From a virus, in the IMG/VR virus record IMGVR_UViG_3300042340_000110, positions 1-33,214 of that record: a stretch of 33,214 bases of DNA, one strand, 5' to 3'. The position numbers and the translations under genes were made by a program. The notes beneath the pieces were generated by a model. That model was given only the letters and a program-made list of their open reading frames with translations. It was not told where the DNA came from and made no database searches. Positions 2,611 to 20,253 of this stretch are shown in pieces. Each line of letters opens with the position of its first letter. Position 1 is the first letter of the stretch.

Positions 2611-3924
2611 TCACGCACCCACGAGGGCGATGACCGGGCCAGCCGCCGTGTCCGAGCCGAGCTCGCTCCACGAGATGGCGCACCGCATGGTCGCACGGAC
2701 CACGACCTGATCGCTCAGGAACGCCACCTGATCGCTGGACGCGATCTCCAGGCCACGACGCACACCGAAGTGAGCGGCGTTGCGGAGGTTGGCGTACAGG
2801 GCCATGACCTTGCCGGTCTGATCGCCCGAGCCCACCATCTGGTGCGAGAGCAGCACCGGCGAACCCAGGAACGTCAGGCCGAGCCCCTGCGACAGACCGA
2901 CCGACCCGCCCTGGGCGAGGTCGAGAGCCTGGAGGCAGGTGGCGAACGCATAGGGGGACACGATCCACGCCGCACCCTGCCGGCTGTGGCTGGGCATCTT
3001 GGCCATCATCTCGAGGATGTTGGCCTTCGTGATCTCCTCGAAGTAGTCGCCAGCACCCGTCACGAGGCTCGCGGCGTAGGTCGCCGAAGAGCCAGCGAGG
3101 ATGCCGCCGCTGGTGAGGATGCCCGCGACGCTGGGGGCGTTCGCCGAGTTGCCGTTGAAGGCAACCGTCTCGACCGCCTGGGTCAGCGTGTAGGCCAACT
3201 CGGTGGCGAGCATCTCAGCGATGCCGACAACCGAATCCTCGAAGAGCTCGGTCGACACCTTCGTCGCGGCCGTCACCTTCTTCGCGGTCAGGGTGACCTG
3301 CGAGTGGGTGGGGTCGCTGTCGGTGATCGCGGTGTTTTCCGCGACCCAGTAAGCCGTCGCGCCGCCGGTGCGCTTGGGCACCAGCACCACGTCGCTCGGC
3401 ATGTTGATCGGCGTCGCGTTGGACGCGAACACCGAGTCCTCGTTGACGAGCCGCAGCACCTGATTGCTCAGGATGTCGGGCACGAAAGCCGAGCCGGTCG
3501 TGGACGCGGCCGAGCCCTGAGCACGGGCCTCGATGCCGTAATCGTTGCACCACCGCTTGGCCTCGGCGTCACCACGGAGGTGACCCTTGATCCACATGCC
3601 GGCCTTGTACGCCTCTTCCTCGGTCTTGAACGCACGCAGCTTGCCGGCGTACGGGATCGACTCGATCCGCACCTTCGGCTCGTCGGCACGCACCTCGGGG
3701 GCCGGGGTGCAGCGGTCGACCACGGAACGCAGGTTCTTCGCCGACTCGGCAACCGACTTCTCGAAGTCGATCTTCTTGGCGAGCTTGGCGGCGTCGGCCG
3801 TCAGCGTCTCGAGCTCGAGGTCACGCTCGGCAATCTTGTCCGCGTCGCCCTCGATGGCACGCACGGCGTCGATCCGGTTGGCGAGGGTAACGGCCTCGTC
3901 CTGCAGCTTCTTGAGGTTGTCCAC
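2611..3924 (-). CDS. Major capsid protein, HK97 fold (437 aa)
   Basis: The 437-residue product has a charged coiled-coil N-terminus (about residues 1-75, rich in Lys/Glu with repeated DAAKLAKKIDFEKS heptads), the usual scaffolding delta domain of HK97-type capsids that the prohead protease removes. The body follows with RGDAEAKRW, STTGSAFVPDI, TEL..DSVVGIAEMLATELAYTL, and a C-terminal QVVVRATMRCAISWSE segment typical of the phage_capsid family. Start is GTG 3924, with GGAG about ten bases upstream. Order protease - Zn-ribbon - capsid agrees with a classical head cluster. It is followed by a strong hairpin. Confidence 0.95.
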   Translation of the reverse strand: MDNLKKLQDEAVTLANRIDAVRAIEGDADKIAERDLELETLTADAAKLAKKIDFEKSVAESAKNLRSVVDRCTPAPEVRADEPKVRIESIPYAGKLRAFKTEEEAYKAGMWIKGHLRGDAEAKRWCNDYGIEARAQGSAASTTGSAFVPDILSNQVLRLVNEDSVFASNATPINMPSDVVLVPKRTGGATAYWVAENTAITDSDPTHSQVTLTAKKVTAATKVSTELFEDSVVGIAEMLATELAYTLTQAVETVAFNGNSANAPSVAGILTSGGILAGSSATYAASLVTGAGDYFEEITKANILEMMAKMPSHSRQGAAWIVSPYAFATCLQALDLAQGGSVGLSQGLGLTFLGSPVLLSHQMVGSGDQTGKVMALYANLRNAAHFGVRRGLEIASSDQVAFLSDQVVVRATMRCAISWSELGSDTAAGPVIALVGA

Positions 3925-4816: not shown

Positions 4817-6098
4817 CTGTCGTGTCCTCCTCTTCGGCCTGGTCCTCGGCGTCATCGGCCGGTGTGTCTTCAACCTCGACGGCTGGCTCGGGCATCGGCT
4901 CCGGGGCAGGCGGATCCTGGCCCACCTTGTCCAGCGTGGTCATGTTGAGCTGCACGAAGTGCTTGTCGCCTTCCGGCCCGATTGGGTTCAGGTTCTCCAG
5001 CTCGCGGATCTCGTTCACAGTCATCCAGCCGTTTTGCAGGGCCGAGACGTAGTAGGCAGACCGGCTCGCGTGGTCGCCACGCAGTAGGCCGCTCACGCTG
5101 TGCTCGGCGAAATACCGCTCATCGTCCACGATCAGGTCACGCGAGATCGCGGCTTCCCATCGCTTGAGATGTGGCAACAGGCAGTGCTGCACAAACTCGG
5201 TGCCCTGCACCTCGATGTTGCTATAGGTGCTGCGGCTCAAGTCTTGAATGAGGTGAGGCGGAATCCGGAAGGCGCGTGCTATCTCAAGCAACTGCCAGCC
5301 CCGTAATTCCAAAAACTGACTCGACTCGTTGCTGCCGCTTAGTTCGTGGGCCTTTACGCCATTCGGAAGGACGGCCGTGCGAAATGCCCGGTCCGGCCCA
5401 CGGTGCATCCGCTCCCACTGCTCACGCAGCCGCTCGGCCGCTTCGACCGGAATCGGGTTGTCTGACTCTAGGATGATGCCCGGCCTAGCGCCTGAACCGA
5501 AGTACGCACTGCCGTGGGCCTCCAACGCCTGGGCCAGCCCGATGGCGTTACGGAACAGCGTGTACGTCGGGATCGGCCGGATGCCGTCCTCGGTCGTGAA
5601 CCGCAGGCAGAAAATCTGCTCCTGCGTGTAGAGCGTCTGTTTGCCGCTGGGCTCGCGGTACTTGTACCGCACGGTCCCGTTCTCAAGCCGCTCGGCTTCC
5701 ATGCGAGACGAGTGCAGCGGCCACAGTTCCGACACGGCACCTCGAGCACCTGGGCGGATCTCGGCGTAGCTCGCACCGTAATGCAGGTACATGCCGGTCA
5801 TCCAATCCCGAAACTCTTGAGCCGTCTGCCAAGGGTTGGGCTGCATGTGCAGCAGGCGGTAGACCGGATGCTGCGGAGCCTTGGCCTTGCCACCGTTGGC
5901 GAGCCGCTCATAGACGTGGAGCGGAAGGGCCGAGACGGCGTCCGAGATCACCCGGATGCAGGCCGTGTAGGCCGAGCACGCCATCGAGTTGTCGGCGTTG
6001 ACCCGGATGCCAGACGGCGTGCGGCTAGACGAGGACTCGGTCCACTCGATGCCACGCAGGTCGAACATCTTGTAGTCGGCGACGGCGTTTTCGTTCAT
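4806..6098 (-). CDS. Portal protein, HK97 family (430 aa)
   Basis: Start is ATG 6098, which overlaps the terminase stop as ATGA; the open frame upstream is terminase shadow. The product has the usual portal landmarks: SACIR-like AYTACIRVISDAVSALPLHVY near the N-terminus, HPVYRLLHMQPNPWQTAQEF, YLHYGASYAEI, LWPLHSSRM, and IPPHLIQDLSRSTYSNIEVQ followed by LLPHLKRWEAAI. It forms the dodecameric DNA gate of the capsid. The C-terminal 50 residues are highly acidic with Pro/Glu runs. It lies between terminase and protease as expected. Confidence 0.95.
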   Translation of the reverse strand: MNENAVADYKMFDLRGIEWTESSSSRTPSGIRVNADNSMACSAYTACIRVISDAVSALPLHVYERLANGGKAKAPQHPVYRLLHMQPNPWQTAQEFRDWMTGMYLHYGASYAEIRPGARGAVSELWPLHSSRMEAERLENGTVRYKYREPSGKQTLYTQEQIFCLRFTTEDGIRPIPTYTLFRNAIGLAQALEAHGSAYFGSGARPGIILESDNPIPVEAAERLREQWERMHRGPDRAFRTAVLPNGVKAHELSGSNESSQFLELRGWQLLEIARAFRIPPHLIQDLSRSTYSNIEVQGTEFVQHCLLPHLKRWEAAISRDLIVDDERYFAEHSVSGLLRGDHASRSAYYVSALQNGWMTVNEIRELENLNPIGPEGDKHFVQLNMTTLDKVGQDPPAPEPMPEPAVEVEDTPADDAEDQAEEEDTTDGT

Positions 6099-7654
6099 AG
6101 GGTGATGATGTCCCAGTTCTGCTCGGCTGGTTTCGCAGTCGCCACGGCGTGCAGCCCGAGGCCCATCACCAGCGAGACGATGCCGTCGATGCGTTCCGTG
6201 CTTTTCGCCTTGCTCGGCTTGATGTTGCCCTGGTGGTCGGTCTGCACTGCCACGTTGCCAGCCATCCACGACAGCACCGGATGATTCCCGTGGCGGATCT
6301 TCTCCGAGAGCACGAGGTTCTCCAGCTGCTTGCTCGGGCTACTCATGGAGCCGTAGCCCTGTCCAAAGCCTGTCACATTCACGCCTTCCCCTTGCAGTTG
6401 GGTAGCGAGTTGGGTGGCGTTCCAGCGGTCGATTCCCACCTGCCGGATATTGAACTTCTGCGAGAGCTCGACGATGTCGCGGCGGATTACGTCGTAGTCG
6501 GTGACGTTGCCATCAGTGGCCCTGATGTACCCGTCACGAATCCACCCGATGTAGTCCACCTTGTCACGCTGCGTCCGCTCGGCAGCGTTCTCCTGCGGCA
6601 CCCAGAAGAACGGCAGCACGTCGAACGTGCCATCGTCGGCCTGGCTGACGAGCACCAGGGCAGACAAGTCGTAAGTGGTCGCAAGGTCAAGCCCGGCGTA
6701 CCACTCACGCTGCTCGAGATCGCCAGACAGCGGCTTGCCGCACTTCGCCCAGTTGTCAGGCGAGAGCCACCGCACGTCCTGCGTGGTCCAGACGTTTAGT
6801 CTGTATCGCAAAAAGCTATTGAGCTTCGACGGCGACTGCTCGGCCTCGCGGGCATCAGCGGCGAATGAATCCACCGTGATCGTCTCGCCGAGAGACGGGT
6901 TGGCCTGCCGCCACACCTTCTCGGTCTTCCATGAATCGTTTGTGCCAGCATCCGGCGGCGCGGCGTAGATGCAGCCGAAGAAGGCCGGGTCTACTGTTGG
7001 ATCGGCAATGCACCGCTCGGCGTAGGCGTGCTGCTCCCAGCAGATGCTCTTGCGGTCGTAGCCCGCCGTGGTGATCGACAGGATGAGCGGCTGCCGGCGA
7101 GCCGCACCGCCGTATCGCAGGGCGTCCCACAATCGCCGGTCCCGCTGGGCGTGCAATTCGTCAAAGAGCAGGGCGTGAATGTTCAGCCCCTCGGCACGGA
7201 ACGCGTCGGCTGAGAGCACCCGGTAGAACGAATTGCTCGCCTTGTGAACGATGGTCTTCCGGCTGTCGATCACCTCGAGGTGCCGCGACAACGCAGGCGA
7301 AGCCCGCACCATCGACGCCGCTTCCCGGTAGATGATGCCCGCCTGCTCGCGGTCGCAGGCCGCACCGTAGACCTCCGCCCCTGGCTCGGAGTCGAAGGCG
7401 GTCATGTAGAGAGCGATGCCGGCCAGCGTGGTGGACTTGCCCTGCTTTTTCGGCAGCTCGATGTACCCGACACGGTGCTGCCGAAGCCCGTCAGGTCCGA
7501 GCCGGCCGAAAAGTTCACGCAGCACGTGGTGCTGCCACGGCAGGAGCGTGAACGGCTTGCCAGCGTTCTGCCCCTTGCTGTGGCGCAGGATCTTCTCGAA
7601 GAAGTGCACCACCCGCTCGTACTTGGCCTGGCCCTCTTTGCAGAGATCAGGCAC
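6095..7654 (-). CDS. Terminase large subunit, HK97-like (519 aa)
   Basis: The product starts MPDLCKEGQAKYERVV and contains LLPWQHHVLRELFG, the Walker-A-like ELPKKQGKST, Walker B ALLFDELHAQ, a motif-III-like ILSITTAG, and a C-terminal nuclease beginning WYAGLDLATTYDLSALV with later GIDRWNATQLATQL. This is the packaging motor ATPase and headful/cos nuclease. I chose GTG 7654, which overlaps the small subunit stop by 8 bases (GTGCCTGA). A longer version from TTG 7711 with an AGGG upstream would add a Lys/Ser-rich stretch of 19 residues; I cannot decide from sequence alone. Confidence 0.93.
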   Translation of the reverse strand: MPDLCKEGQAKYERVVHFFEKILRHSKGQNAGKPFTLLPWQHHVLRELFGRLGPDGLRQHRVGYIELPKKQGKSTTLAGIALYMTAFDSEPGAEVYGAACDREQAGIIYREAASMVRASPALSRHLEVIDSRKTIVHKASNSFYRVLSADAFRAEGLNIHALLFDELHAQRDRRLWDALRYGGAARRQPLILSITTAGYDRKSICWEQHAYAERCIADPTVDPAFFGCIYAAPPDAGTNDSWKTEKVWRQANPSLGETITVDSFAADAREAEQSPSKLNSFLRYRLNVWTTQDVRWLSPDNWAKCGKPLSGDLEQREWYAGLDLATTYDLSALVLVSQADDGTFDVLPFFWVPQENAAERTQRDKVDYIGWIRDGYIRATDGNVTDYDVIRRDIVELSQKFNIRQVGIDRWNATQLATQLQGEGVNVTGFGQGYGSMSSPSKQLENLVLSEKIRHGNHPVLSWMAGNVAVQTDHQGNIKPSKAKSTERIDGIVSLVMGLGLHAVATAKPAEQNWDIITL

Positions 7655-8117
7655 CGTGGAGCTTGAAGAACTCTTCGACTTCGTCGCTCGGCTTTTCTTC
7701 CTTGCCGCCAAGTCGCACCCTGCTGGTCGGAGTCAGGCCAAACTCGCCCATTAAGGACGCCTGCAACGCCACTAAACTTCGATATAACGGGCCAGCCGGA
7801 TTCGGTTTGACGCCACCCAGGTCGGTTCGCATCACCGGGCCAGTGGCACGAAGCTCGAGCAGGCACGCCTGCGTGGCAGCGTACACCTCGCACAAAGTCG
7901 CCAACGCCTCGCCGTCCGCAGTCGTGAGCGTGCCAAGGCCGAGCAGGATTGGCACAAGCTCGTTCCACTTCTCAACAGCGAGCGGCTCAACCATGAGACG
8001 CTTCGGCATCGGCGGTGAGCCAGCCGGGGCAGGCAGGTCGGGCCGGATCTTTCGCTTGCCGGGATTGCCGAGCAACTTTTTCACGTTGGCCGGTTGTGGC
8101 TTTCGGCCGCGTGGCAT
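7647..8117 (-). CDS. Terminase small subunit, P27 family (156 aa)
   Basis: Start ATG 8117 has AGAGG about six bases upstream. The protein opens MPRGRKPQPANVKKLLGNPGKRK, the hallmark of the P27 small terminase family, and has MVEPLAVEKWNELVPILLGLGTLTTADGEALATLCEVYA in the helical centre. The subunit recognises the packaging site and hands DNA to the large subunit. The C-terminus is acidic and runs into the coupled large subunit gene. The packaging (cos/pac) site would be expected near this gene, but I cannot point to it. Confidence 0.92.
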   Translation of the reverse strand: MPRGRKPQPANVKKLLGNPGKRKIRPDLPAPAGSPPMPKRLMVEPLAVEKWNELVPILLGLGTLTTADGEALATLCEVYAATQACLLELRATGPVMRTDLGGVKPNPAGPLYRSLVALQASLMGEFGLTPTSRVRLGGKEEKPSDEVEEFFKLHGA

Positions 8118-8230
8118 CAAACACCTCTAGAAAACAGGGCAAAAACGCTGCGGCAAAATGCGGGCGCGTTTTCGGCGGTTACGACCGTGGTCCGCAGCCC
8201 CTCAGGTCGGTATCCCGACGACCGCCCCGG

Positions 8231-9361
8231 CTACACCTGCGCCGACATCGGCAACAGACGCTGGCCGTCCCACTTGTTGCCCTTGAGTTCGTTGCATCGC
8301 TTGCAAGCACACCTGACGTTATGCCAGTCGTGATCGCCGCCTTTGCTTAATGGTATCGGGTGATGGTCAACAGTTGCAGACAGGGGATCGCTTTGCGAGA
8401 AAAGCTTGTGCGTCTTTTTATGGCATAGATGACAGATATATCTATCGCGGCTGAAGATATCAGCCGGCTTTACTTTTGCGTTGAAGTGTCCGCCATAGAC
8501 TTTGCACCGACGCCTGTAGTCCTTGCGCATACGCCCGTATTGTCGCTTACGTTTCCTTCTGCATTCTTTGCAGTAGGGTCTGCCGAATGCAGATGCGTTC
8601 TCAACAGTCGCGCCGCACTGGCACTCTTTATCCCCTCTCCATAGCTTGTTGCATTCGTAACTGCAAAACCGAGACGAACCGGGTTTGCATACCTCACCGC
8701 ACACCTCGCACCAATGTGTTTTAGCAAGAGCCTCCCACAGCCCAGCGCCGCGTTGTAGCCATCTGTGCATAACGCTTTTCGCTTTCAGAGCCCACTTCAC
8801 AGACGGGGCACTGGCGTACCTTCCTCCCCTGTGCCAACTTCCTTTTGCTATTGCACTCCTGTCCCACAAAACACGCCCAGCATTGCGTGCTGCGAAATAG
8901 CAAGGCTTTGAGCAAAACAACGCCTTATCCTTTTTGCCATTTGGCCCCTTCGGGGATCTCCTGAACTGCTTACCGCACTCAATGCAGGTTCTTGATGTCG
9001 CTCGCAACGCCTGACGCATACACACTGTTCCGCAGAACCTATGCCCTTCGGCCTTGCGTTTTAAGGTTGTTGTGAATTGCTTTTCGCACTGCTGGCACTT
9101 CAAGACCACCCTGCCGCCGCTCGTAAGGTATTGGCAGTTCCGACTGCAAAACCTGGACTTAGGATGCCTAGCAAGCCATTGGCGGTTGCAGTGCAAGCAA
9201 ACACGCAAATGTCCTGCGTCGGCTCTCCTGCGGTGGTTTTTTCTGGATCTGGTTGCGTCTGCCGATTGGCGGCATGCGTCGCAGCGCTTAGGAATCGGCC
9301 CTCTCTTGGCCGGCGACACAAACTCCTTGCGGCAATCAACGCAAACGACGTTTCGGCACAT
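8231..9361 (-). CDS. HNH endonuclease with six N-terminal zinc-knuckle repeats (376 aa)
   Basis: Six Cys4-type knuckles come first: cysteines 7/10-27/30, 55/58-72/76, 89/92-110/114, 126/129-150/154, 218/221-233/237 and 247/249-264/267. Several end in the pattern FCSxxC or FCGxxC. A C-terminal HNH domain follows at about residues 308-365, with CHLC (310-313), DHHPIPLSKGG (332-342), HN (347-348) and CKRC (353-356). The likely role is DNA nicking or cutting, as a free-standing homing endonuclease or packaging-associated HNH protein. The knuckle array probably reads DNA. Base composition looks clearly more AT-rich than neighbours, suggesting later acquisition. Its start is buried in a hairpin (see 9359-9384). 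Confidence 0.85.
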   Translation of the reverse strand: MCRNVVCVDCRKEFVSPAKRGPIPKRCDACRQSADATRSRKNHRRRADAGHLRVCLHCNRQWLARHPKSRFCSRNCQYLTSGGRVVLKCQQCEKQFTTTLKRKAEGHRFCGTVCMRQALRATSRTCIECGKQFRRSPKGPNGKKDKALFCSKPCYFAARNAGRVLWDRSAIAKGSWHRGGRYASAPSVKWALKAKSVMHRWLQRGAGLWEALAKTHWCEVCGEVCKPGSSRFCSYECNKLWRGDKECQCGATVENASAFGRPYCKECRRKRKRQYGRMRKDYRRRCKVYGGHFNAKVKPADIFSRDRYICHLCHKKTHKLFSQSDPLSATVDHHPIPLSKGGDHDWHNVRCACKRCNELKGNKWDGQRLLPMSAQV

Positions 9362-9384
9362 GAAGCAAACCTCCTTGCTTCATG
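9359..9384 (-). promoter_or_regulatory. RBS hairpin: start codon in stem, Shine-Dalgarno in loop
   Basis: On the minus strand CATGAAGCAA, GGAGGT and TTGCTTCATG follow one another. The two outer ten-mers are exact reverse complements, so the six-base loop is precisely the Shine-Dalgarno, and the AUG of the HNH gene (9361-9359) is paired. Two further G-U pairs can extend the stem. An upstream ATG at 9383 in the other arm opens a 15-codon reading frame that runs through the SD and past the start, ending at 9336. The structure should lower translation of the nuclease unless it is opened. Confidence 0.75.
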
Positions 9385-9400
9385 CAGCATGCGCGCACTG

Positions 9401-9715
9401 TCAAACTTTTTGGCGTTGCTCCTGCACAGTCTTCCTGCTGTGGCATCGCACGCATCTGGCCTCGCCATTGGCCACGTCATACCGTGCGCCGCCTTGAGCG
9501 ATTGGCACGACGTGGTCTGCGTGCATCGCACGACCGGTTGCCACGCGACCACAATCGACGCACTGCCAGGCACACTTGGTCAGCACAGCCTGCCGCCACT
9601 TGCGGTGTGCCTTGTCGCAGTACCCACGGGCTGCCGCGTTTGGCCGTCCGCTCTCGTCACGCCTTGCGGCGGTACGCAGCCTCAGCGGCCTGTGGGTTGG
9701 GATCCGCTGGGGCAT
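9401..9715 (-). CDS. HNH endonuclease next to terminase, HK97 gp74-like (104 aa)
   Basis: The 104-residue protein has a basic N-terminus (MPQRIPTHRPLRLRTAAR), then GYCDKAHRKWRQAVLTK, CAWQCVDCG, MHADHVVPIAQGGARYDVANGEARCVRC in two parts, and SRKT. This is the compact HNH type found beside terminase genes in many cos phages, where HK97 gp74 is needed for efficient terminase cutting. ATG 9715 overlaps the stop of the preceding gene as TGATG. Its composition matches the neighbouring late genes better than that of the zinc-knuckle HNH gene downstream. Confidence 0.88.
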   Translation of the reverse strand: MPQRIPTHRPLRLRTAARRDESGRPNAAARGYCDKAHRKWRQAVLTKCAWQCVDCGRVATGRAMHADHVVPIAQGGARYDVANGEARCVRCHSRKTVQEQRQKV

Positions 9716-10071
9716 CAGCTCTTGAACATCACCACACCGCTGGTGCCGGTGCTATTCGTGGTGGCACTCACGATCTTCAGGTACTCCGTGCCGAACACTT
9801 CATCCGGCAGGGAGTAGGCCCGGCCATCCGTGCTGGAAGCGGCAAGCGTCAGGTCGGCCACGCTGCCGTCGCTCTTGTACAGACGGCGGAACGTGCCAGT
9901 GCTCGACGGGCTCACCCACATCTGCAGCGAGGTGGCATTGGTGCTCATCGTGCCAAACGACACGACGGCTCCTGCAACATCACGCATGTCGAGCGTGGTG
10001 GCCAGGCTCGTTGCCGTGTGCAGGGTGATGTCAAAGTCGCGGTACTTCCGCGAGATGGTGGCGTCAGACAT
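9715..10071 (-). CDS. Small virion-type protein of unknown function (118 aa)
   Basis: The product starts MSDATISRKYRDFDITLHTA and is Ser/Thr-rich with predicted beta strands throughout (VVSFGTMSTNATSLQMWV, YLKIVSATTNSTGTSGVVM). It has no hydrophobic segment and no recognised catalytic motif. AGGAG lies seven bases before ATG 10071. Proteins of this make-up are often decoration or minor virion proteins, and the place between a LamG-like gene and the packaging genes agrees, but no family was recognised. Confidence 0.7.
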   Translation of the reverse strand: MSDATISRKYRDFDITLHTATSLATTLDMRDVAGAVVSFGTMSTNATSLQMWVSPSSTGTFRRLYKSDGSVADLTLAASSTDGRAYSLPDEVFGTEYLKIVSATTNSTGTSGVVMFKS

Positions 10072-10138
10072 GCGTGGTCTCCTGTGTCTCTAGGCTAGGG
10101 TGGCGTGGTATCAGCCTTGCAGTGCAACAGCGATGCGA
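10072..10138. other. Short intergenic gap before the LamG-like gene end
   Basis: This 67-base stretch separates the LamG-like stop from the next start. It holds the AGGAG ribosome site of the 9715-10071 gene. No hairpin with a stem over five pairs and no promoter pair were seen. Confidence 0.5.
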
Positions 10139-10849
10139 TCACTGGTCAAGGAACGGTGCGTCTGGCGGAGTGAATGCAGACGTGTAGCGTGCTGCCTTCG
10201 TGATCCTGAGCTCGTCGATGTAGCAGTCCGCACCGCGAGTCGCAGGGTCGTACCATCCAGCGCCAATAATCAGCGGCGTACCGGCAGTGCTTGCTATATC
10301 AAGTGAAGCGGACGAGGCTAATGACCCGTTGATAAAGAGGCGGGCAGTACCACTTTCGCAAGTCACGGCAACGTGAGACCATTGGCCTGTCGGCAATGAT
10401 CCAGAAAGCACGAAGTCGATAGTCCCAGACGGGTCTCCTTGGCTTGCGAAGAACGCTAAATCTTCGCCGCTTGGCTCCAGAGACCAGCAGTTCTCAACAG
10501 TTTCAGCAACACCCTGGCTAATCAGGGCAGCAGTTGCTGCCAGCGTGTTTGGGTATGTCCATAGCTCAATGCAAAAGTCCGACCCACTCAAATCAAGCTC
10601 AGGATCGCCTTCAACTGACAGGTATCCGCTGCCGTCAAAAAGCCCTGCAGAGCCGCCGAACTTACTTTCGGACGTGCTGACTTCAGCCGTGCCGCCGGCC
10701 GTTACAGCCAACGAATTGCCAGACGAGTCAACAAACGACGTGCTTCCGTTGGCCCCGTCAAAATGAATGAGCAACGACACGTCTGCGAAGTTGGGGTCTG
10801 TCGGCGCTGACGCAGCCCTCGGCCGCAGCAGCTTCGGATTCATCGCCAT
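10139..10849 (-). CDS. LamG / concanavalin A-like jellyroll protein (236 aa)
   Basis: The sequence has the laminin-G-3 fold pattern: VSLLIHFDGANGSTSFVDSSG near residue 25, KFGGSAGLFDGSGYLSV, FCIELWTYPN, the QWSHVAVTCESGTARLFINGS core, and a closing YIDELRITKAARYTSAFTPP motif that is common at the ends of phage LamG proteins. Such domains bind glycans, so a role as host-adhesion or capsid/tail decoration is likely. It is not in the tail cluster but between lysis-like and packaging genes. The DNA looks somewhat richer in A/T than its neighbours, in keeping with exchange of adhesion genes. Confidence 0.82.
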   Translation of the reverse strand: MAMNPKLLRPRAASAPTDPNFADVSLLIHFDGANGSTSFVDSSGNSLAVTAGGTAEVSTSESKFGGSAGLFDGSGYLSVEGDPELDLSGSDFCIELWTYPNTLAATAALISQGVAETVENCWSLEPSGEDLAFFASQGDPSGTIDFVLSGSLPTGQWSHVAVTCESGTARLFINGSLASSASLDIASTAGTPLIIGAGWYDPATRGADCYIDELRITKAARYTSAFTPPDAPFLDQ

Positions 10850-19398: not shown

Positions 19399-20253
19399 TT
19401 AGTCGTCTGCGTCCTGATCGCCGAAGCGGTGCGTGCGTCGGTACTTATTCAAAACCTTAAGGATTGCGCGGCCGCAAACCTTTTCGCCGCGCTTGCCCTC
19501 TGCAGCGCCAAACTTGGAGATAGAGTCCAAGATGTCTGCTCTGCTTGCTCGCCTCAGCGCTTGGTCGAAGGCAGTAGTTCCGCATAGGCCGTACCTACGC
19601 TCAATCCAAAAAAGACCATCAAGAATGTCTCTGTGAATCGGCAGGTCGCCGCTCAATTCAATCGTTGACTGAAGTGCCCACTCAAATGTCTCTGCGTCTT
19701 GGGCGGCAAGTTGTAGGCACCTTCCAACACACTTCAATTGCCTAGCAGTGCGTGGGTTTGAATCGACGACTACTTCAAGTTCGCTGAACACCCTACTGAC
19801 AATTTTCGCTGACTCGTCGCCAGTCATTACTAATGCCTTAAATTTGTCCAATGCGGACACAGGCTTTCTCTCAGAGTTAGAAACCAAAAAGCCGGCAGCC
19901 TCTTGGGTTTTCTCGTTGCACTCAAAAACCATGCACGGCAACTCCCGTATGTCAGCCCTGTTCCTTGCGGCCAGCACTCGGTGCTGGCCGTCAAAAACCC
20001 AGAAACTGCCGTCTGGCCGCATTGCGACGAGGATGCAGCCACACCCAGCCCAAGACCATTCGGACTGTATCTGGCGAATTTTGGAAACGATGACCTTGTC
20101 GCGCTGGTACTCGTGGTCGATGTTCAGCAGCTGCTTGTCTATCCGCATGAACTCGCCTGGAATGTCTCTCAAAACCCAACCGTACCGGACAACCTTTGGG
20201 ACGTTTCCACCGCAGGTAGCAACCTCACTCGTTTCATAATTTGCAGTTGTCAT
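19399..20253 (-). CDS. ParB/sulfiredoxin-fold protein (284 aa)
   Basis: ATG 20253 is preceded by AAGGA at eight bases; the open frame upstream is not needed. The product has IPGEFMRIDKQLLNIDHEYQR and then VAMRPDGSFWVFDGQHRVLAA, the DGQHR-type loop of ParB-like nuclease fold proteins (DUF6551-like). The remainder is helical with FLVSNSERKPVSALDKFKALV, again family-like. It could be a DNA-binding or nucleotide-cleaving protein. A true ParA partner is absent, so plasmid-like partition is unlikely. The DNA is visibly richer in A/T than nearby genes. Confidence 0.75.
   Translation of the reverse strand: MTTANYETSEVATCGGNVPKVVRYGWVLRDIPGEFMRIDKQLLNIDHEYQRDKVIVSKIRQIQSEWSWAGCGCILVAMRPDGSFWVFDGQHRVLAARNRADIRELPCMVFECNEKTQEAAGFLVSNSERKPVSALDKFKALVMTGDESAKIVSRVFSELEVVVDSNPRTARQLKCVGRCLQLAAQDAETFEWALQSTIELSGDLPIHRDILDGLFWIERRYGLCGTTAFDQALRRASRADILDSISKFGAAEGKRGEKVCGRAILKVLNKYRRTHRFGDQDADD

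Follow-up and report, generated by a model that had tools for sequence, protein, structure and literature searches.

In phage T4, the Shine-Dalgarno (SD) sequence of the I-TevI homing endonuclease is held in pairing until transcription from a late promoter releases it (PMC2988022). In Aeh1 mobE and T4 segB, a hairpin at the ribosome-binding site (RBS) reduces initiation (PMC2988022, PMC3014915), and for the remaining free-standing T4 endonucleases translational control is not obvious and has not yet been tested (PMC2988022). HNH genes also occur upstream of the phage terminase, in a region that is a hot spot for homing endonuclease gene (HEG)-like nucleases (PMC10448857). Neither the control of phage homing endonucleases by hairpins nor the presence of HEG hot spots beside terminase is thus new in itself. 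What is new at the locus described here is an SD that is displayed while the spacer and early codons are locked, the depth of conservation despite sequence turnover, and a tie to the stop codon of the invaded gene.

As in I-TevI, I-TevII, and I-TevIII, a phage homing endonuclease gene here begins within an RNA structure that is predicted to depress its translation. In the T4 genes the SD is paired and is freed by late transcripts starting inside the structure (PMC2988022). The present gene, by contrast, is free-standing; its SD lies mostly in a loop, pairing involves the spacer and early codons instead, and a search of 8000–10200 for sigma-70-like promoters found none, inside the structure or elsewhere in that region. 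The likeness to I-TevI proposed in the first-pass annotation extends to the RNA structure covering the endonuclease start, but not to sequestration of the SD (unpaired 0.80). Like mobE and segB, the gene is a free-standing endonuclease (of HNH type in mobE) with an RNA hairpin at the RBS; in those cases the RBS is sequestered and single or few sequences are involved, while here the RBS is displayed, 38 leaders with sequence turnover carry the structure, a second helix reaches into codons 2–4, and the phages are unrelated and uncultured. The seg43 gene of Aeromonas phage 25 also has a stable hairpin adjoining an endonuclease RBS with the SD unsequestered (PMC2988022), but that hairpin lies upstream of the RBS and the present one encloses the SD. 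As in HK97-type packaging regions, HNH genes stand upstream of terminase; here, however, one of the two HNH genes serves as the host site, and the second is inserted there together with a structured leader.

Computation shows that the structure outlasts changes in its sequence, is specific to the endonuclease family, is more favorable on the sense strand, and moves along with the gene. The window, i.e. the whole 33,214-nt stretch of virus record IMGVR_UViG_3300042340_000110 that was analyzed, carries this gene (P0001) between a 104-aa packaging-type HNH gene and the terminase genes (Table 1). The protein appears to combine an HNH nuclease domain with a separate putative DNA-binding part: it matches phrog_1271 and, at C-terminal residues 310–366, the Pfam families HNH_5 (E = 1.4e-7) and HNH (4.6e-5), and its family alignment shows an invariant DH..N motif and CxxC pairs, many invariant CxxC lying in the N-terminal part. 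A first scan of genome contigs with the endonuclease returned no relative, and the sole genome match of TerL is a Phycisphaerales MAG (45% identical).

Table 1. Positions of features at the endonuclease locus (window coordinates)
Feature	Position	Strand	Basis or remark
Core hairpin, 10 perfect pairs, loop GGAGGT	9359..9384	-	Reaches 9357–9386 with G-U pairs
Shine-Dalgarno GGAGGT, in loop, 7 nt 5' of ATG	9369..9374	-	Sequence
Start codon ATG, within 3' arm	9359..9361	-	Sequence
Upstream element GCGCATGCTGC, invariant in four group-A leaders	9384..9394	-	Leader comparison
15-codon upstream frame, ATG 9383 to TGA 9336	9336..9383	-	Sequence; not conserved
376-aa Zn-finger/HNH endonuclease ORF (P0001), probable homing endonuclease	8231..9361	-	Pfam, phrog_1271, family alignment
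Insert, approximate outer limits (leader + ORF + ~29 nt)	8202..9428	-	Versus empty sites L086/L087
TGA stop of upstream HNH gene, in block GTTTGACA common to many occupied sites	9401..9403	-	Sequence, relatives
Packaging-type HNH gene, 104 aa; element inserted into 3' end	9401..9715	-	Domain/phrog matches, relatives
Terminase small subunit TerS (phrog_83)	7647..8120	-	Phrog match
Terminase large subunit TerL (phrog_9)	6095..7711	-	Phrog match

Comparison of occupied and empty sites shows the gene to be present or absent at one site, with uninterrupted empty alleles: many phages whose upstream HNH protein is at least 67% identical run directly from HNH to TerS. Two pairs are clean. In L108 versus L100, left homology stops at GTTTGAC and right homology resumes 17 nt past the ORF stop, and the insert takes the place of 12 nt of the empty site; in L124 versus L122, left homology stops 57 nt before the ATG and right homology resumes 15 nt past the stop, with 19 nt replaced. 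The insert is thus the leader, the ORF, and a short tail, and the leader moves together with the ORF. Past its RKT motif, the HNH protein has a tail of 5–10 aa at occupied sites versus 8–41 aa at empty ones, so the insert supplies its own end to the reading frame it invades. P0001 is therefore probably a free-standing homing endonuclease.

The site also holds other material. Inserts of ~1.5 kb unrelated to the HNH family lie between HNH and TerS in L099, L139, and L142–L149, and L101, L135, and L141 carry short, weakly similar Zn-finger ORFs at the same place; having no SD near the start, these last three were left out of the leader counts. Packaging-type HNH genes 67–93% identical (L086–L164) are followed by two unrelated-looking TerS/TerL sets, with TerS either 84–98% or 25–40% identical to that of the window, and since the same HNH gene precedes both, modules appear to be exchanged with this gene as their boundary. 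A conserved TTTGACA was considered as a -35 box; the inspected leaders have no -10 at 16–18 nt, the search for sigma-70-like promoters found none, and the motif is better read as the HNH stop and insertion flank.

On the minus strand, the hairpin consists of CATGAAGCAA (9384–9375), GGAGGT (9374–9369), and TTGCTTCATG (9368–9359), i.e. 10 perfect base pairs around a 6-nt loop, and occurs in a single copy in the window. RNA folding gives 12 pairs with a G-U pair at each end, the inner of which reduces the loop to GAGG. The perfect ten-pair stem of the first-pass annotation is thus confirmed, while its loop made up of all of GGAGGT and its two extra G-U pairs do not hold literally together. Pairing of the endonuclease start codon was also correctly called, as the ATG at 9361–9359 lies inside the 3' arm; in the L085 leader, which is identical to that of the window, pairing probabilities leave the SD unpaired at ~0.8 and the start codon at 0.00. 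The annotation had further pointed to a 15-codon upstream frame passing through the hairpin. That frame exists, but we reject it as a regulator because it lacks conservation: it has 12 codons in L043, has lost its ATG in L045 and L046, and has no counterpart in other groups. It arises because the arms are palindromic, so that a CAT in one reads as ATG in the other.

Scans with the protein, the family alignment, the N-terminal alignment, and the group-B leader pattern gave 38 distinct leaders; an exact pattern, GCATGCTGC-N8-AAGGAGGTTT, had the wrong spacer length and found no match. Within group A, the arms CATGAAGCAA/TTGCTTCATG of the window become CATGGAACAA/TTGTTCCATG in L043 through two-sided changes, with A-U/G-C and G-C/A-U compensatory pairs (two such pairs among four sequences). 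The more distant L046 has lost the 10-bp stem and forms CGGCACA/UGUGCCG instead, again including the start codon. Other groups build unrelated stems around the SD, i.e. GUCACAC-GGAG-GUGUGGC, UGCCACC-CACAAGGA-GGUGGCA, and GUGGCAACU-CAGGAGAA-AGUUGCCAU. In most leaders an outer helix is added, in which the upstream element pairs with the AUG and codons 2–4 (e.g. GCAGGC with GCCUGC); the counterpart of GCGCATGCTGC in other groups pairs with codons 1–4. One design thus recurs across unrelated stems: pairing covers the SD-AUG spacer, places the SD in the loop in most leaders, and is usually extended by an outer helix.

Compensation is also seen in group B, where both sides have changed (C-G/A-U/U-A and U-G/U-A/G-U) and the covariation score is matched by 1 of 500 shuffles. 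The MAFFT alignment of group C (A5) has gaps within the stem and was excluded from pair counts. The pairing reaches into codon choice: the Ala codon at position 2 is GCC or GCU in 12/12 leaders with GCAGG, and GCG or GCA in 9/10 leaders with TACAC/TACAA-type elements. Swapped combinations of leader and coding start are less stable than native ones, which were equaled by 20 of 20,000 permutations (0 of 20,000 for MAC-only proteins), shared descent being uncorrected in these figures. The comparison with relatives that the annotation had proposed therefore finds compensatory pairing conserved in groups A and B and specific to the family. L156 (as part of L156/L178) has a group-B leader whose junction with the coding sequence falls precisely on the start codon; the protein begins MSAWKPRFC, and L134 has the same protein type, starting VSAWKPRYC, behind a different leader. 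This resembles an exchange of leaders at that codon, and in both L156 and L134 an outer helix still takes in the start-codon region (z -3.1 and -3.6).

Folding statistics set these leaders apart from other genes. Relative to shuffles, the -36 to +12 region of the 38 leaders has a median z of -2.65, with 63% below -2, versus +0.13 and 4.3% for control genes on the same contigs (n = 278); the leaders are related, so that the effective sample is smaller and the P-values inflated. Because of this inflation, orthologue sets of co-resident genes were analyzed identically. Median z is +0.18 to +0.54 for HNH, TerS, TerL, and a 118-aa gene (0–2% below -2) and +0.06 for the portal (14% below -2); alone among the six co-resident families, the capsid gene is also low (six leaders, median z -2.3). 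In a first set, a hairpin of -8 kcal/mol or lower with the SD in its loop was found in 17/23 leaders versus 5/224 controls, and 4 of those 5 control hairpins belong to family members missed by the filter. A few leaders (L053, L226, L234, L237, and L076) fold no better than shuffles. Neither the window nor four relatives contain an Rfam match above the gathering score. At the start of the major head protein (2611..3924, minus strand) and in its relatives L189 and L192, a GGCAATACCGCC-type stem lies just 5' of the SD.

Conserved compensated pairing, family specificity, and the better fit on the sense strand make translational control of a DNA-cutting enzyme, as the annotation had suggested, the best reading, without the upstream frame that went with it. 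The hairpin is very likely a genuine means of control, and the gene it serves is probably mobile. With moderate confidence, we interpret the leader structure as an RNA lock that would lower initiation, the gene probably being mobile and the lock perhaps opened by the ribosome translating the HNH gene. The endonuclease mRNA start would fold so that the SD is shown in an apical loop, the spacer is paired, and the AUG and codons 2–4 are paired through the stem or the outer helix; this structure would lower de novo initiation and thereby throttle the endonuclease.

How the lock might open is suggested, more tentatively, by spacing. The distance from the HNH stop to the first paired base has a median of 7 nt (IQR 5–8) whether that stop is TGA, TAG, or TAA, and this closeness, kept with differing stop codons, would fit opening by a terminating ribosome; in the window itself the main 12-bp stem begins ~15 nt past the TGA. 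A ribosome terminating at the HNH stop may invade the base of the structure, the next initiation may then use the already exposed SD, and endonuclease output may be a small fraction coupled to HNH translation. A broader and doubtful, though possible, extension is that the left end of the insert forms a self-contained coupling cassette, in which the invaded gene terminates at an in-frame stop, followed within a few bases by a two-helix RNA that shows the SD and locks the AUG and codons 2–4, so that the intruder would be translated only as a by-product of the invaded gene, wherever inserted.

The exposed SD could instead aid initiation, the hairpin promoting translation by displaying the SD and keeping competing structure off, so that an inserted gene would be read well in any genome. 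The SD is indeed more accessible than in control genes (unpaired, 0.72 vs. 0.46; family median, 0.80). However, the SD-AUG spacer is paired at 0.83 versus 0.54 in controls and codons 2–3 are unpaired at 0.20 versus 0.46, although the accessibility of the AUG alone is not significantly below controls, and in many members the structure that locks the spacer and codons 2–4 amounts to -17 to -29 kcal/mol over 48 nt. Display of the SD is itself common, not universal, because the SD is mostly paired in about seven of the 38 leaders (L073, L109, L051, L265, L246, L134, and L046), and its pairing in members such as L107/L051, L073, and L265 argues against promotion. The known endonuclease RBS structures are repressive (PMC2988022), and we regard promotion as unlikely.

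A protein operator, bound either by the encoded Zn-finger protein in autoregulation or by a host protein of CsrA/RsmA type, appears improbable for its part. CsrA/RsmA-type proteins recognize ANGGA in hairpin loops; 28/38 leaders, against 21/220 controls, have CANGGA before the SD or overlapping it, and group C keeps an unpaired ACANGGA loop while N is A, U, or C. Against this, pairing with the UG that follows GGA partly accounts for the CA before it, some leaders depart from the motif by having CAGGA or CACAGGA, and the window contains no CsrA gene, so that we treat a CsrA site as a lead only.

The palindrome sits at the insert's left end, as it might if it worked as DNA, where the mobile element would be cleaved, recombined, or recognized by its end. 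The evidence favors RNA, since 29/38 leaders fold more stably on the sense than on the antisense strand (-19.1 vs. -15.3), 15% of leader pairs are G-U, and control genes are nearly symmetric (-11.2 vs. -10.7). Beyond this strand asymmetry, the pairing register is fixed to the SD and AUG, codon choice tracks the upstream element, and sequences differ wholly between groups, unlike a recognition site; a DNA-level role is very unlikely.

Perfect stems of at least 10 bp with loops of 3–10 nt number 2 in the window (the second at 19968–19990, with a 3-nt loop) versus 0.43 per dinucleotide shuffle, 28% of shuffles containing at least one. At that frequency, and with the 91-nt region around the hairpin of ordinary stability overall (z -0.67), the window by itself could not exclude chance, which is excluded by the position of the stem on the SD and AUG and chiefly by the comparative evidence. 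A functionless chance palindrome in this phage is accordingly most improbable, given compensated conservation in relatives and absence from other gene families.

Beyond a few T4-type cases, little is understood of how free-standing homing endonucleases are controlled. With an RNA lock on initiation as the preferred reading, the 38 leaders, which keep their shape despite sequence turnover, together with the empty alleles form a ready comparative set for asking whether a mobile gene arrives with a translational governor of its own.
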